Shown piece by piece: positions 1,319 through 27,618 of a stretch of DNA of 35,669 bases. The stretch is from Arsenophonus endosymbiont of Bemisia tabaci Q2 (GTDB lineage: Bacteria; Pseudomonadota; Gammaproteobacteria; Enterobacterales; Enterobacteriaceae): contig NZ_CACTIE010000064.1 in the NCBI RefSeq assembly GCF_902713415.1, positions 1 through 35,669 of the forward strand. Direction: 5' to 3'. The position numbers and the translations under genes are program-made. Numbering within the stretch: position 1 is the first letter of the stretch; every line of letters starts with the position of its first letter. Below the pieces are notes generated by a model, which worked only from the letters and a program-made list of their open reading frames with translations, was not told the origin of the DNA and searched no databases.

Positions 1319-2404
<1,086 letters not shown>

Positions 2405-2407
<3 letters not shown>

Positions 2408-3284
2408 CTAAGCGACTTAATTTTGATAACATTATTTATATGAGCTATTCAATTGATTTTAGATGTAAAGTGATATTTACGATGGAAGAAGAAGGGTTGA
2501 GTATCCGAGAAACAGCGAAGTAATTTCGGATTGGCTCTGCATCTGTATCGTGTTGGATTAATCAAATAGAGCCAAAAGCATCGACTACGCGTCAGCGAAA
2601 AATTGATAAATCCGAGTTGATAAAAGATGTTGAACAAATATCCAGATGCTTACCAAAAAGAGTGTGCAGAGCGTTTTGACGTTTGTCAGAAGGCCATTTG
2701 GCAAGCTCTTAAAAAAATGGGATTGACCTATAAAAAAACTCTACGTCATCCGAAAGCCGACGAAAACACTCGACAAACGTTTCAACAAAAAAACAACAGT
2801 ATGAAAAAGAAGGCAAGCATATTGTTTTTATTGATGAAAGTGGTTTTTCACACGATACCCCGCGGACTCACGGCTATTCCCCGAAAGGTCAACGGTGTGT
2901 TGGTCTCAAGAACTGGGGAGCTAAAGGAAGAACAAATGTTATCGGCGCTTTATTGGGCACAACGCTGTTTGCTATCGGATTATTTGATATCAATATTAAC
3001 AGCGATGTTTTCTATGCATGGGTCACCCAAGTCCTTATCCCAGTACTTCCTAAAAACAGTGTAATCATGATGGTTCATGCAACTGTTTCACAAGAAACAG
3101 AGTATTCAACAAGTCATCATCGATGCGGGGCATATGGTGGAATATTTGCCTACCTATTCGCCAGATCTTAATTCAATTGAACATAAATGGGCACAAGCTA
3201 AATGCAAAAAAAGAGCGCTCGGATGCGATACAGATATTTTGTTCGCACTCAATATGGTGTAATCAAAATTAAGTCGCTTAGCTA
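2405..3284 (+). mobile_element. Complete IS630-family insertion sequence, copy 1 (880 bp)
   Basis: The element starts TAGCTAAGCGACTTAATTTT and ends with the inverted copy of the same sequence; the terminal repeat is perfect over 23 bp. It is flanked by TA at 2403-2404 and TA at 3285-3286, the target duplication typical of the IS630/Tc1/mariner superfamily. Removing one TA plus the element restores tgt reading (GTA then GAG). It carries a single damaged transposase gene. A near-identical copy lies at 24399-25285 on the other strand, and partial copies sit at both window edges. Confidence 0.93.
2440..3262 (+). pseudogene. IS630-family transposase, degenerate (copy 1)
   Basis: This is a DDE transposase that would cut and paste the element at TA dinucleotides. 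Starting at ATG 2440 it reads MSYSIDFRCKVIF, with a helix-turn-helix-like N-terminus (IRETAK, then SASVSCWINQ). Damage: CAA to TAA at about 2521-2523; one extra A in GAACAAATATCC near 2633-2640 shifts the frame; the second catalytic Asp region MMDNATFHK of the sister copy reads MMVHATVSQ here with a further +1 shift near 3080. The first catalytic segment (FIDESGF) and the third (SPDLNSIEHKW, NPIE changed to NSIE) can be found in the appropriate frames. Natural expression probably also needed a -1 frameshift at A-AAA-AAC near 2785-2795. Not functional as it stands. Confidence 0.88.
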
Positions 3285-3286
3285 TA

Positions 3287-9396: not shown

Positions 9397-9494
9397 TGGT
9401 GTTCAGGCTTTTCGAATAATCTGATGTTCATTTTGATTATAAAGTGCAGTCATAGCGTTATAGCAATCGGAGCATGGTATATTGGAATATTATT

Positions 9495-10494
9495 ATGGTT
9501 TGTGACGAATTTGATATCATCCATCGCGCGTTATTTTAATCGTCAACAGCAAAATCGGCATGACGTTAATATTGGTATTGGTGATGATTGTGCATTGATA
9601 ACAATACCGGAAAGACAGCAATTAGCAATTACTACCGATACACTAGTTGAAGGTATCCATTTTCTTGATAGTATTTCACCTGAAGATTTAGCCTATAAAT
9701 ATTTGGCGGTTAATTTAAGTGATTTAGCCGCTATGGGAGCTGATCCTGCCTGGGTTTCTCTGGCGTTCACATTGCCACATATCAATGAAGATTCGCTGGC
9801 AAGATTTAGCTCTAGCCTATTTTAACAGCTTAATTACTATGAAATGCAACTTATTGTTGGCGATACAATACGAGGGCCAATGAGTTTAACCTATACAGCC
9901 CATGGTTTGATTCCGACAGGAAAATCACTAACCCCGGTCTTGGAGCTTGTAATGGTGATTGGATTTATGTTACCGGAACATTGGGTGATAGTCCTGCAGG
10001 TCTTGCGATTTTACAATCACAGCTGGTTTTCGATGATGTAAAAGATCGTCATTTGTTGATCCAGCGTCATTTAAGGCCACAGCCTCGTATTTTGCAAGGG
10101 CAGGCTTTACTTCATCTTGCTTCTTCGGCGATTGATATTTCTGATGGCTTGATTTCTGATCTTGGAGATATTCTCAAAATTAGTGGCCGTGGCGCTAAAA
10201 TTAAATTAGATTCTTTGCCAGTATCAGAGGCATTCTGCAGACCAGTTACCTCAGAACAGGCGTTAACCTGTGGGCGTTAGGTTGTGGAGAAGATTATGAA
10301 CTGTGCTTTACAGTGCGTGAGATAAATCGTGGTGCATTAGAGTCAGCACTAGCGCATACTGTGGGGCAAATTTTCATTGTATCGGCGAGATAACACCAGA
10401 ATTAGAAGGGATCCGCTATTTTTATGGGAATAAAGAGGTTTCACCTAATTTAACTGGTTTTGATCATTTTATTGTGGAAGCTTGCTATGATTGA
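9495..10494 (+). pseudogene. thiL: thiL pseudogene, thiamine-monophosphate kinase
   Basis: ThiL phosphorylates TMP to the coenzyme TPP. The gene is still traceable from ATG 9495 (MVCDEFDII) to TGA 10492-10494 (TGFDHFIVEACYD) but is broken at least five times. They are: a 4-base duplication (ATCATCCATCGC) near 9516-9523 that shifts the frame; a TAA in place of a codon at 9823-9825 (SSSLF then stop); a one-base loss in ACCCCGG near 9930-9940; a duplicated TG near 10271; and a further shift near 10360-10370. Recognisable islands include [40 protein letters not shown] and [16 protein letters not shown]. The nucleotide-binding GGDT is GVD-like here (QLIVGDT). The end overlaps the start of pgpA by eight bases, as normal. 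Certainly non-functional. Confidence 0.95.
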
Positions 10495-15966: not shown

Positions 15967-16543
15967 TTAAATACCAGGCGGCAGGACAAGTTGCTAAGCA
16001 ACTTCCGCTACCTTTTTTTTGCCAACTAATAGCTCGATAAATTTAAGTGAAAAGTCAATAGCTGTGGCAGGGCCCTTGGCTATTAAGTAGTTTTACCCGT
16101 TCATCATAGTAGACACGACAATCAACGCGTTTATGGCTGGCAATTTTACTTTGTAAAGCCGGATAACCGGTCATATTCCCCATTGGAAATAAACTATGGT
16201 GTTCTAGTACGATTGCCGGCACGGCACAAAGAGCGGCAATGATTTTACCCTGATGATGAGATTGGCGAATTTTTTCAATGATCAGCGGATTATCACGAAA
16301 CGCCTCCGCGCCTTTCAATCCACCAGGTAATACAATAGCAGCAAAATCCTGTTCAATGATATTGACTAACTGAGTGTCAGCAACAATTTTTACTCCACGT
16401 GAGCAAGTTAACACCAATTCGCCATTATCTGTGGTACTTGCAGTTGTTACTGGGATCTCAGTTCTAGTTAACAGATCAATCACTGTTACGGCTTGTATTT
16501 CTTCGCTACCATGCGCAAGGAAGACGAGAACGGTTGGTGAGAT
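15967..16543 (-). pseudogene. yajL: yajL pseudogene, DJ-1/PfpI family chaperone-deglycase
   Basis: YajL belongs to the DJ-1 family. The remnant reads PTVLVFLAHGSEEIQAVT at the N-terminus and keeps the reactive cysteine in AALCAVPAIVLEHH. Lesions: the codon where a start is expected reads ATC (complement of 16541-16543), the only in-frame ATGs being upstream at 16603 without a ribosome site; an extra C in GGGCCCTGCC near 16066-16070 ends the frame as SQGPCHSY; in the continued frame (ATAIDFSLKFIELLVGKKK) a TAG interrupts near 15990; the natural TAA is at 15967-15969. Not expected to make an active protein, though a 182-residue frame from 16603 is open. Confidence 0.88.
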
Positions 16544-16664
16544 TAGAGCTTCTCTCGGTTTAATTAATGGATAAATAATCGGATTTAGCATGTTGTCAGC
16601 CATAACTTGCTAACAGCGCCAGCACTAAAGATCGCTATTATTTTTTATCTGACTGAATCAATTA

Positions 16665-16767
16665 TAGCTAAGCGTTTTAATTTTGATTACAAAATATATG
16701 TTTTTCTCCAATATAAATTTAATGATATAGAGTAATTACTTGTAATCATTTTAAAGTCGCCTAGCTA
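16665..16767. mobile_element. 103-bp MITE with IS630-like ends
   Basis: The element begins TAGCTAAGCGTTTTAATTTT and ends, read from the other strand, TAGCTAGGCGACTTTAAAAT; both arms continue into TGATTACA, giving an imperfect terminal inverted repeat of about 27 bp. TA flanks both sides (16663-16664 and 16768-16769). The outer 10 bases and TGATTACA match the ends of the full IS630-family copies, but the interior is non-coding and unrelated to the transposase gene. It should fold into a long hairpin. It lies between yajL and yajQ, where E. coli has panE; no panE trace is visible. Confidence 0.85.
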
Positions 16768-16868
16768 TATGCTTTTTAGGGAATTTATTTAACATTAAGT
16801 ATAGAGCTTTTGCTGATAATAAAAAGTAGTATTATGCTATTTTATGAGTAATAAGGAGGTCATGAAAT

Positions 16869-17360
16869 ATGCCATCATTTGATATAGTTTCTGAAATTGA
16901 CATCCATGAAGTGAGTAATGCCGTTGAAAATGCACAACGTGAATTGGCTAGTCGTTGGGATTTTCGCAATGTTGAAGCCAGTTTTGAACTCAATGAAAAG
17001 AATGAGTCGATTAAAATAACGAGCGTGTCCGACTTTCAAGTAAACCAATTGGTAGATATTTTACGCGAGAAATTAGCTAAGCGTGGAATAGATGGTGCTG
17101 TCTTGAATATACCTGACGATATTGTTCATAGTGGCAGAACTTATAGCCTTGATGCTTCGTTACTGCAAGGCATTGATTCGGTAATGGCAAAAAAGATCAT
17201 TAAACTAATTAAAGAGAGTAAATTGAAGGTTCAGGGGCAAATTCAGGGAGAACAAGTGCGAGTAACCGGTAAGTCACGCAATGATTTACAAGCTGTGATA
17301 GCGCTAGTGCGAGAGGCTGAACTTGGGCAACCTTTTCAATTTACTAATTTTCGTGACTAA
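16869..17360 (+). CDS. yajQ: UPF0234/YajQ family nucleotide-binding protein
   Basis: YajQ is a small cytosolic protein of two ferredoxin-like domains; homologues bind cyclic di-GMP or nucleotides, but the physiological role is unclear. The 163-residue product starts at ATG 16869 behind a near-perfect TAAGGAGGT (16852-16860) and begins [19 protein letters not shown], the family signature, with [28 protein letters not shown], and [18 protein letters not shown] later. Divergent from yajL, convergent with yajR. Intact. Confidence 0.95.
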
Positions 17361-24098: not shown

Positions 24099-24398
24099 TT
24101 AAAAATTATATTTGATGGTATAAATGATCCCATCGTGATAAAAATCATCACCAAGTTTGTTATCAATATAGCGATATTGAATACCTTCAGATAAGGTTTC
24201 AAAAGGCGTCCACCATAAGGCTACCGGCACCGTTAATACCTCTTCTTTGCCGTCATTGCCATAGCCTTTTGCGCGATTAAGTTTCATCTCATGCCAATTA
24301 GTGATAGAAAAGTTTTGTGACCATAATTGAAAACTATAGCCGGCAACCCAACCAATGACATAGCCATTTTTGCCAGAATACAAAGTTTGATCAACATA

Positions 24399-25285
24399 TA
24401 GCTAAGCGACTTAATTTTGATTACAGCTTCGATTACACCATATTGAGTGCGAACAAAATATCTGTGTCGCATCCGAGCGCTCTTTTTTTGCATTTAGCTT
24501 GTGTCCATTTATGTTCAATTGGATTAAGATCTGGCGAATAGGTAGGCAAATATTCCACCATATTCCCCGCATCGATGATGACTTGTTGAATACTCTGTTT
24601 CTTGTGAAAAGTTCCATTATCCATCATGATTACACTGTTTTTAGGAAGTACTGGGATAAGGACTTGGGTGACCCATCCATAGAAAACATCGCTGTTAATA
24701 TTGATATCAAATAATCCGATAGCAAACAGCGTTGTGCCCAATAAAGCGCCGATAACATTTGTTCTTCCTTTAGTTCCTCAGTTCTTGAGACCAACACACC
24801 GTTGACCTTTCGGGGAATAGCCGTGAGTCCGCGGGGTATCGTATCAAAAAGCACTTTCATCAATAAAAACAATATGCTTGCCTTCTTTTTCATACTGTTG
24901 TTTTTTGTTGAAACGTTTGTCGAGTGTTTTCGTCGGCTTTCGGATGACGTAGAGTTTTTTATAGGTCAATCCCATTTTTTAAGGGCTTGCCAAATGGCCT
25001 TCTGACAAACGCCAAAACGCTCTGCACGCTCTTTTTGGTAAGCATCTGGATATTGTTCAACATCTTTTATCAACTCGGATTTATCGATTTTTCGCTGACG
25101 CGTAGTCGATGCTTTTGGCTCTATTTGATTAATCCAACGCGATACAGATGCAGAACCAATCCGAAATTGCTTCGCTGTTTCTCGGATAATCAACCCTTCT
25201 TCTTCCATCGTAAATATCACTTTACTTCTAAAATCAATTGAATAGCTCATATAAATAATGTCATCAAAATTAAGTCGCTTAGCTA
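24399..25285 (-). mobile_element. Complete IS630-family insertion sequence, copy 2 (887 bp)
   Basis: Same element as at 2405-3284, opposite strand, with TA duplications at 24397-24398 and 25286-25287. Joining the flanks after removing the element and one TA gives the uninterrupted channel reading LALHYVDQTLYSG, so the insertion is exact. Compared with copy 1 it has a 12-base insertion close to one end (GATTAC repeated at 24419-24424 and 24431-24436) and lacks one A in each of three A7 runs. Confidence 0.92.
24433..25250 (-). pseudogene. IS630-family transposase, degenerate (copy 2)
   Basis: The N-terminal part is clean for 94 residues from 25250 (MSYSIDFRSKVIFTMEEEG; helix-turn-helix region IRETAKQFRIGSASVSRWINQ) and ends early as LKKWD because an A7 run is A6 at about 24977. 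Two more A-runs are short (about 24956 and 24902). The first catalytic segment reads IDESAF followed by TGA. The C-terminal part from 24741 is open and keeps the second Asp (MMDNGTFHKK) and the Glu segment (SPDLNPIEHKW). Not able to make a full transposase as it stands. Confidence 0.88.
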
Positions 25286-25575
25286 TAATGTAAGGCTAAG
25301 AAGGGTTTTACCCAAAAATCGCCTAGTGAGAAATTGTAGCCAAAACCATAAAGTGTATTAATTTCGTGGAAATTACCACCGTATTTATAACCGGGTAAAG
25401 ACCAAATACCATAAAGATGCCCATAGAGATTAAAGCCACTGTCACCTAAGTAGAAAGGACCGGTTGTTTTAACGGCGTAGCGTTGGTTTTTGCTGGGCTC
25501 TGTTTTACGTTGATGAAATGGATTTTCAACATCAAAGAAACCGTAGAGTTCACCCCAATTAAAGTCGCCCAGCTA

Positions 25576-25632
25576 TAAATTTATATTGAAGAAAAACATA
25601 TATTTTGTAATCAAAATTAAGACGCTTAGCTA
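25576..25632 (-). mobile_element. Truncated MITE inside the channel pseudogene (57 bp)
   Basis: Read on the minus strand it begins TAGCTAAGCGTCTTAATTTT and continues through TTACAAAATATATGTTTTTC and CAATATAAATTTA, matching the first ~56 bases of the MITE at 16665-16767; the other half is missing. TA is present on both sides (25574-25575 and 25633-25634). Without it the host gene reads GGAGGAGC-TA-GCTGGG, giving GGASW in the channel protein after one base is restored. Confidence 0.8.
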
Positions 25633-25960
25633 TAGCTCCTCCTTCCAGTTCAAGATAGGTAAAATCTTTTTACCGGTAGTGTGAGCCGAGTTATTTTCTG
25701 CTCGTTGTGACCAGTTAAAATAATTTAGACTGATATTAGCGAAACCATTTTGATAACCAACGGAATTTTCTCTTGTAGTACTAGCCATGGTAAACGGAGT
25801 TAGCTACGTTAATATCGCAATAGGTAAAAACTTTTTACTCATAAATTTTATTAACTTAATTTTAAATAAACTTAAACGCATTTGAATATAATGAAATGCG
25901 AAAGTGAAAGCTGCGAGATGATAGAGTTTGTTTTTGTAAATAGAAATTTGATCTTTTGCA

Positions 25961-26085: not shown

Positions 26086-27618
26086 CTATTTATTGCATTG
26101 TTTTGGTATGCCTGTTTTAGGCATCGCTAGATAATTCAGGGTTCCGCCTAAAATAAAATCAACAGTCCCAATTATGATACTTAAATTAATCAGTTGATCT
26201 TTATAAATTAACATTTTAAACCATACTTCAATCCGTTGTGTAAATAAATTGATCTTGCCAGCCGAAAAATAACTTAAAATTGTTATTATTATCCAAAATA
26301 TAAATATACCTGCTGAGACGGCAAGACACACAAATAGCTAATTTATAGGATTGCTTAAAATAAGTCCAACGCATAAATTTCCCGGTTTGTTGGATATAAG
26401 ATAACGATTGTTTGCATATCAATATTAAAAAAATACTCAGTAATGAAATAACGACAGAAATAAGATAAAAAGCGGGCCAATCATATTTGCTCACTAGCGC
26501 GCTTGCCATGGGCCCAACATGGACCCGCCCAATAGCTGATAAGGCCGATAGTAAAGCAACTTGAGTTGCAGAAAGCGAATGATTGCAAAGCGTCATTAGT
26601 AGTGCGACAAAAGCGCCAGTGCCCATGCCAGAAAAGATATTTTCAATAAAGATAACGCTGCTGGTGTTATAAATATTGGCGGGAGTTACTGCCAGAAACC
26701 AATAACCAAAATTAGAAATAGTCTGTAAAATACTGAAAATAAGTAAGGCTTTAAATAACGACATTTTTTGCATAATATAGTCGCCATATAAAGCGCCAAG
26801 AATAGTTGCAAATAGTCCAACAGTTTTATTAATAGTGCCAACTTCAGCCAGCGAAAAGCCAAGTTTATTTAATAGGAAATTGGTAATCAGTGCCATAACA
26901 AATGCATCACCCATTTTATAAAAATGATCAATAACAAGGTGATCCAGGCATTATTACGACTAAAAAATTCGATAAAGGGTTCATAGATAGCTTCATACAG
27001 TGTTTTGGGTGATGGCGATTTTATTAGTGGTTCTTTAGCGGACAGTGTTGCATAGACACCAATTAGCATTAGGCTGCCCATCACTAGATAAAGTTGATGC
27101 CAAGTAACAAAATGGTCGACCAACCATAAAGCTAATCCGCCTGAAACCCAACATATTAATACGATAACCCATAACGGATATTGCCGCGCCGGCGCCACGC
27201 TTTTCTGTTAACAATAAATCGGTTTTATAAGCATCAAAAACAATATCTTGTGAGGCGGAACAAAAAAAGACCAGCACCGCAGCAGCTGCTAATCACCAAA
27301 GATGCTCTTTGGGATCGATAAATCCCATCGCAGCAATGCTGATAATCAGTAAAATCTGAGTGGTTAATAACCAACCACGCCGGCGACCTAGCAAGGGCAG
27401 GGTGTAGCGATCGATTAATGGTGACCAAAGAAACTTTAATACATAAGCCTGGCCGACTAATGAAAAAAACCGATCGTTTTAATATCAATATTTTCGACGG
27501 TTAACCAGGCTTGCAAAGTACTTGCGGTAACTGCCAGCGGTAACCCTGACACAAAACCTAGCAAAAGCAGCACTCGGGAACGATGTTGGGTAAAAACGGT
27601 CAGGTAGTTTTTTTTCAT
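26086..27618 (-). pseudogene. ampG: ampG pseudogene, muropeptide permease
   Basis: AmpG imports GlcNAc-anhydroMurNAc muropeptides for cell-wall recycling and beta-lactamase induction. The remnant begins MKKNYLTVFTQHRSRVLLLLG at 27618 and ends near 26086 (GTVDFILGGTLNYLAM), about the expected 490-500 codons. Lesions: a lost T in the GFFSLVG codons near 27465; TGA at 27293-27295 after PKEHLW; one extra G before VSGGLALWL near 27155; a lost T before YKMGDAFVMA near 26920; and another shift near 26340-26400 after KFMRW. Family segments are clear: FCSASQDIVFDAYKTD, RGAGAAISVMGYR, GMGTGAFVALLMTLCN and ATQVALLSALSAIGRV. Membrane helices remain readable in pieces. Non-functional. Confidence 0.93.

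Follow-up and report, generated by a model that had tools for sequence, protein, structure and literature searches.

RUP (repeat unit of pneumococcus) is the nearest described case of a MITE driven by an IS630-type transposase. Excerpts of PMC2229807 and PMC3049150 describe it as a non-coding element of 107 bp with IS630-like ends and a TA target, present in 108 copies (110 in another strain), and report copies within or close to IS elements as well as insertions into other repeats. Correia/NEMIS of Neisseria is, in the excerpt of PMC2229807, a small MITE of about 107 and 155 bp with TA at its termini and a terminal inverted repeat (TIR) of 24 bp. For the cyanobacterial MITE Nezha, movement by ISNpu3-like elements with similar ends is proposed in the excerpt of PMC3049150. 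ERIC reaches 711 copies in Photorhabdus luminescens (PMC10969869, in part) and has a TIR of 7 bp (PMC2229807, in part).

Elements of this IS630-driven kind are well known, and the family described here, whose host genus is Arsenophonus as judged from relatives, is a new and very abundant example. As far as the excerpted accounts go, RUP with IS630-Spn1 resembles it in its 107-bp length, lack of coding capacity, TA target and IS630-like ends; the likeness is one of architecture only, and the RUP host belongs to another phylum. By the same excerpts, the ends held in common with IS630 are longer in the present MITE (about 28 bp on the left, against a listed TIR of 9 bp for RUP), and its copies are about twice as numerous. 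The other systems are likened to it by description alone, again from partial accounts: Correia/NEMIS as a small, TA-ended element of an unrelated host, Nezha as a MITE whose proposed mover (ISNpu3, which we take to be IS630-like) has similar ends, and ERIC as a high-copy enterobacterial MITE. In a search of open-licence papers we noticed no description of an Arsenophonus MITE family; the main text of PMC12090721 contains none of the terms “IS630”, “transpos” and “insertion sequence”, PMC10969869 contains neither “IS630” nor “Arsenophonus”, and the part of PMC5091035 consulted yielded nothing on a MITE. The present family adds to an Arsenophonus genome a dense set of MITEs, which take up about 1.5% of the sampled DNA (IS630 takes up about 7%), and it comes with diverged relatives in two congeners and with letter-level evidence of empty sites. 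How a MITE and an IS630 partner expand, disrupt genes and degenerate side by side can be followed here in a natural setting.

The window, meaning the whole 35,669-nucleotide stretch that was analysed, contains a full copy of the MITE and a rearranged remnant, together with IS630-family copies and fragments (Table 1).

Table 1. Coordinates of the MITE, its IS630 partner and neighbouring genes in the window.
Feature	Position	Strand	Remark
IS630 end at left contig edge	1..40	-	sequence match
IS630-family copy, 884 bp, at 3′ end of a gene presumed to be tgt	2403..3286	+	frame broken
Gene presumed to be yajL-like, outside the element	16055..16603	-	start codon 59 bases from the MITE
MITE copy including duplicated TA at both ends	16663..16769	+	element proper 16665-16767, 103 bp; empty single-TA site in G006 and G003
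Left terminal inverted repeat	16663..16691	+	27/29 identical to IS630 3′ end (consensus MITE 28/29)
Right terminal inverted repeat	16741..16769	-	24/29 identical to IS630 3′ end; 22/29 to own left repeat
yajQ (DUF520), outside the element	16869..17360	+	intact, downstream of the MITE
IS630-family copy, 891 bp, at TA in tsx	24397..25287	-	transposase frame broken
Rearranged MITE remnant in tsx	25566..25632	-	MITE left 59 bp (25576-25634 including TA), then a second MITE's right end, inverted
IS630 fragment at right contig edge	35508..35669	+	sequence match

The element is short and has no transposase frame, its 107 bp including the TAs being below transposase coding size (consensus translated in six frames). 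Its terminal repeats are imperfect, with 22 of 29 bases agreeing between the two ends, and as single-stranded DNA it folds at −13 kcal/mol against a mean of −5.42 for shuffled sequences (z −4.08; none of 200 shuffles is equally stable). With the TA duplication, the empty sites and the many copies described below, these are the features of a MITE. The first-pass annotation, which had noted TA duplications, an unrelated interior and hairpin potential, is borne out on each of these points, the middle of the element giving no significant match to the IS630 consensus. That the MITE arose from the resident IS630 by internal deletion is rejected, since the likeness is confined to the ends. The same annotation had called the ends nearly identical to those of the IS630 copies. 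This holds for the left end, which also matches the IS630 5′ end at 26/29, whereas the right end fits only in part, at 23/29 for the IS630 5′ end. In the MITE consensus the left and right ends agree with the IS630 3′ end at 28/29 and 23/29, and the match of the right end to IS630 ends ranges from 22/29 to 24/29 overall.

All copy counts are draft counts, from an assembly of 1,860,497 bases in 328 contigs. The interior pattern matches 221 times (at most 3 mismatches; 114 + 107), the right-end pattern 231 times (at most 2 mismatches; 121 + 110), a reversed control pattern not once, and the common end pattern 660 times. After removal of partial copies (8 in the sampled DNA), of duplicates by flank and of copies with fewer than 60 bases of flank, 80 distinct full copies remain, 78 of them with TA at both ends, in keeping with the many TA-flanked copies that had been predicted genome-wide; TA is absent from an end in the other 2, as it is in 2 of the 54 full copies in the sampled DNA. 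The distinct copies lie on average 1.66 substitutions from the consensus (maximum 5; 14 with none), and the two main subfamilies, A4 and A5, carry GCCCA (41/57) and GCCTA (14/17) near the right end, respectively. The sampled DNA, 393,275 bases made up of the window and 20 other stretches of the genome, was chosen largely for MITE-bearing contigs, and the densities may be inflated: the 54 full copies take up 1.5% of bases, and 47 IS630 alignments take up 7.0%. Such repeats are probably a major reason why the assembly is so fragmented.

Empty sites, likewise predicted, are found in relatives. At the yajL–yajQ site, G001, G003, G005 and G006 match both sides and all are without the element, and the letters of G006 and G003 read one TA where the MITE sits in the window. 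When the 80 distinct copies were compared with 839,801 bases of G006, 12 insertions gave an alignment running through the junction, and every one of them corresponded to a single TA without a MITE; in two of these alignments a small gap lies close to the junction but does not coincide with it. Of the remaining copies, 7 matched by one flank alone, and for 61 this portion of G006 offered no equivalent site. Eight of the 12 lie inside G006 open frames (stop-to-stop, at least 80 codons), against a background of 77.5% of TA in 800 kb of G006. The insertions show no sign of avoiding genes in this small sample (n = 12), whereas RUP is described as intergenic in the excerpts available. An effect of the copy on yajQ transcription, also raised in the first-pass annotation, finds no support. 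The yajQ ATG lies 99 bases past the outer TA of the MITE, G006 and G003 have nearly the same letters over these intact 99 bases, and a consensus scan of the yajL–yajQ gap, with little power (2.1 promoter-like sites expected by chance), found no promoter- or terminator-like site. On the nearly unchanged spacer and the empty, low-power scan, a role of the MITE at yajQ is rejected.

Among eight other genomes of the genus (G001–G008, of which G007 is 72% complete), the right-end pattern is found in G001 (1), G003 (4) and G007 (2); matches to the interior pattern are confined to G003 (2). G003, presumably the Arsenophonus symbiont of Aleurodicus floccissimus, holds four full copies 90–92% identical to the consensus, one partial copy and one that is much diverged, and G007, which we take to be Ca. 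A. triatominarum, holds two copies at 84% identity. In 30 genomes of other genera, none of the matches listed (at most 11 best candidates per genome, so that weak matches could be missed) involves the MITE portion of the query. A phage search gave no match, and a plasmid search gave a single 35-base match, to the end of an IS630 on a Serratia symbiotica plasmid. Among the matches listed in the contig scan, one to Bacteroidales (L104) spans 21 bases only and is taken as a chance match. Judged by these sequences, the MITE family appears to be old within the genus Arsenophonus and to have burst recently in the present lineage.

Pfam matches to HTH_Tnp_IS630 (PF01710) and DDE_3 (PF13358), on two fragments of one IS630 copy in the window, confirm that the partner belongs to the IS630 family. 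Its 5′ end has 176 matches in the genome, and 11 distinct full-length copies differ from their own consensus by 0.23–1.82% substitutions, a spread similar to that of the MITE copies. Each of the two full-length window copies is inserted at a TA, where G006 has just one TA, and the MITE and the resident IS630 have the same TA target. Of 38 distinct copies with the exact start sequence, 29 are readable over 825 bases, and none of these encodes an intact transposase, the longest frame reaching 209 of the 272 expected codons; among the other nine, two shorter copies already contain a stop, and seven, still open where the sequence ends, allow no verdict. Because no intact transposase is seen among the readable copies, no active source is identified, and most MITE copies are probably now stranded. 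The lengths of A-tracts in the transposase gene vary between copies (e.g., L081, L009 and the window copy at 24397-25287), which could reflect frameshifting, transcript slippage, decay or assembly error; homopolymer assembly errors might lie behind the broken frames.

The 5′ end of the window IS630 was not found in G001–G008. An IS630 of Ca. A. triatominarum is 76% identical to that of the window, relatives on plasmids fall in the range of 70–72% (Serratia symbiotica, 71.5%; Arsenophonus apicola, 71.1%; Fukatsuia symbiotica), and two Legionella plasmids give short matches. The plasmid-borne relatives in S. symbiotica and A. apicola are on NZ_AP019532.1 (H14, H15) and NZ_CP084224.1 (H16), and such plasmids are a possible route between insect symbionts.

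In our judgment it is very likely that this old MITE of the genus was mobilised by IS630 and underwent a recent burst. The DDE transposase encoded by the resident IS630 elements, or by a very near relative, would recognise the MITE ends in trans, insert the MITE into TA dinucleotides and duplicate the TA; the burst to more than 200 copies would have followed the split from the G006 lineage and run alongside that of IS630. We infer movement by the resident transposase from the shared ends and the TA target, as did the first-pass annotation, whose choice of the same IS630 family is upheld to that extent, with a right end that fits the IS630 3′ end at 23–24/29 only. The variant letters TATAGCTAGGCG occur in the IS630 of Ca. 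A. triatominarum and again at the left end of that species' MITE. This co-variation supports the pairing only weakly, because it is limited to the left end, the right end there reading TATAGCTAAGCG, and because the AGGCG form of Ca. A. triatominarum also occurs at the right end of one subfamily in the present genome.

The imperfect right end could instead mean that a different IS630 relative with better-fitting ends, now lost or unseen, moved the MITE while the burst of the resident IS630 was coincident. Related elements do exist, in Ca. A. triatominarum and on the plasmids of S. symbiotica and A. apicola, but the consensus left end agrees with the resident IS630 at 28/29 and the resident element has a comparable copy number and a comparable sequence spread among its copies, and we regard this explanation as unlikely. 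Much less probable is an element of REP-like, RNA-structural or terminator type that is retained for its function in the host and is mobile only secondarily; the stable hairpin is what such an element would share with the MITE, whereas the insertions in G006 open frames give no indication of intergenic placement in the small sample and the yajL–yajQ gap is without a terminator-like site in the consensus scan. That the fragmented draft has inflated the copy number deserves the least credence: contigs are numerous and many of their edges bear IS630 or MITE matches, yet the 80 copies are told apart by their own flanks and 12 of them are placed at separate G006 sites. Mobilisation by the resident IS630 family is retained as the preferred explanation.

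The MITE is often found beside its partner. In the sampled DNA, 17 of the 54 full copies adjoin IS630, where 5.5% (by share of TA) to 7.0% (by bases) would be expected; the binomial p (about 3e-9 to 1e-7) overstates the significance, since several adjoining copies have the same left flank (IS 533-592, IS 280-221) and the events may not be independent. Seven of the 17 have IS630 on both sides, non-contiguous in three, and ten have it on one side only, at least two of these reaching an IS630 end. Clean insertions into contiguous IS630 number 4 of 54 (7.4%), about as expected. In L118 (15954-16060), L120 (9508-9614) and L124 (12537-12643) the two flanks are non-contiguous parts of IS630, which suggests recombination between MITEs, deletion or misassembly, and the excess of one-sided or rearranged adjacency may be due to recombination between MITEs, end-to-end insertion or misassembly. 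Insertion points recur at IS630 position 219, which is hit in both orientations, and at about 592 (e.g., L107 17655, L110 4075, L121 14210, L118 12007; L115 5202, L118 15954); a recurrent point may be a preferred TA or the mark of copies of one nested unit.

A like brake role has reportedly been proposed for RUP. The MITE could conceivably act as a brake on IS630, its own supplier, so that in the present lineage the burst may have contributed to its own end, an idea we consider improbable. The 17/54 adjacency, the recurrent IS630 positions and the lack of an intact transposase in the 29 readable copies speak for it; against it, clean insertions are only 4 of 54, the remaining adjacency is one-sided or rearranged, and frameshifts also break the IS630 frames. 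Tolerance of insertions is the simpler reading of the adjacency, and in the excerpt of PMC3049150 the excess of RUP beside pseudogenes is ascribed to tolerance.

The second MITE locus of the window lies in tsx, whose C-terminal part is Channel_Tsx (Pfam). The first-pass annotation had reported a 57-bp truncated relative at 25576-25632; the related copy is real, and plain truncation is rejected, since comparison with G006 delimits the insert to 25566-25632 and shows it to terminate in the right end of a MITE, inverted. Where tsx in G006 runs GCTAACTTTAATTGG, the window reads GCTA, then 59 bases of the MITE left part, the start of an inverted second right end and then ACTTTAATTGG, the remnant joining tsx at a 7-base microhomology (25559-25565). 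The insert is best read as two nested MITEs cut down by a microhomology deletion inside tsx. In the order of events that the letters suggest, tsx would first have received one MITE; a second, oppositely oriented, would then have landed at a TA within that MITE, and the rest would have been lost by deletion between two ACTTTAA stretches, one in the second MITE and one in tsx.

Several genes of the window are broken. In tsx (24099-25800), the interruptions are the IS630 copy and the MITE remnant, and the matching part is open in G006. Three more genes appear split into adjacent frames at 166-951, 9424-10280 and 26228-27198, as expected of genome decay or homopolymer errors; we take them to be queA-like, thiL-like and a transporter. 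At 2380-2410 the tgt-like gene has lost part of its 3′ end to the IS630 copy at 2403, the insertion having created a stop; the G006 frame continues beyond the TA.
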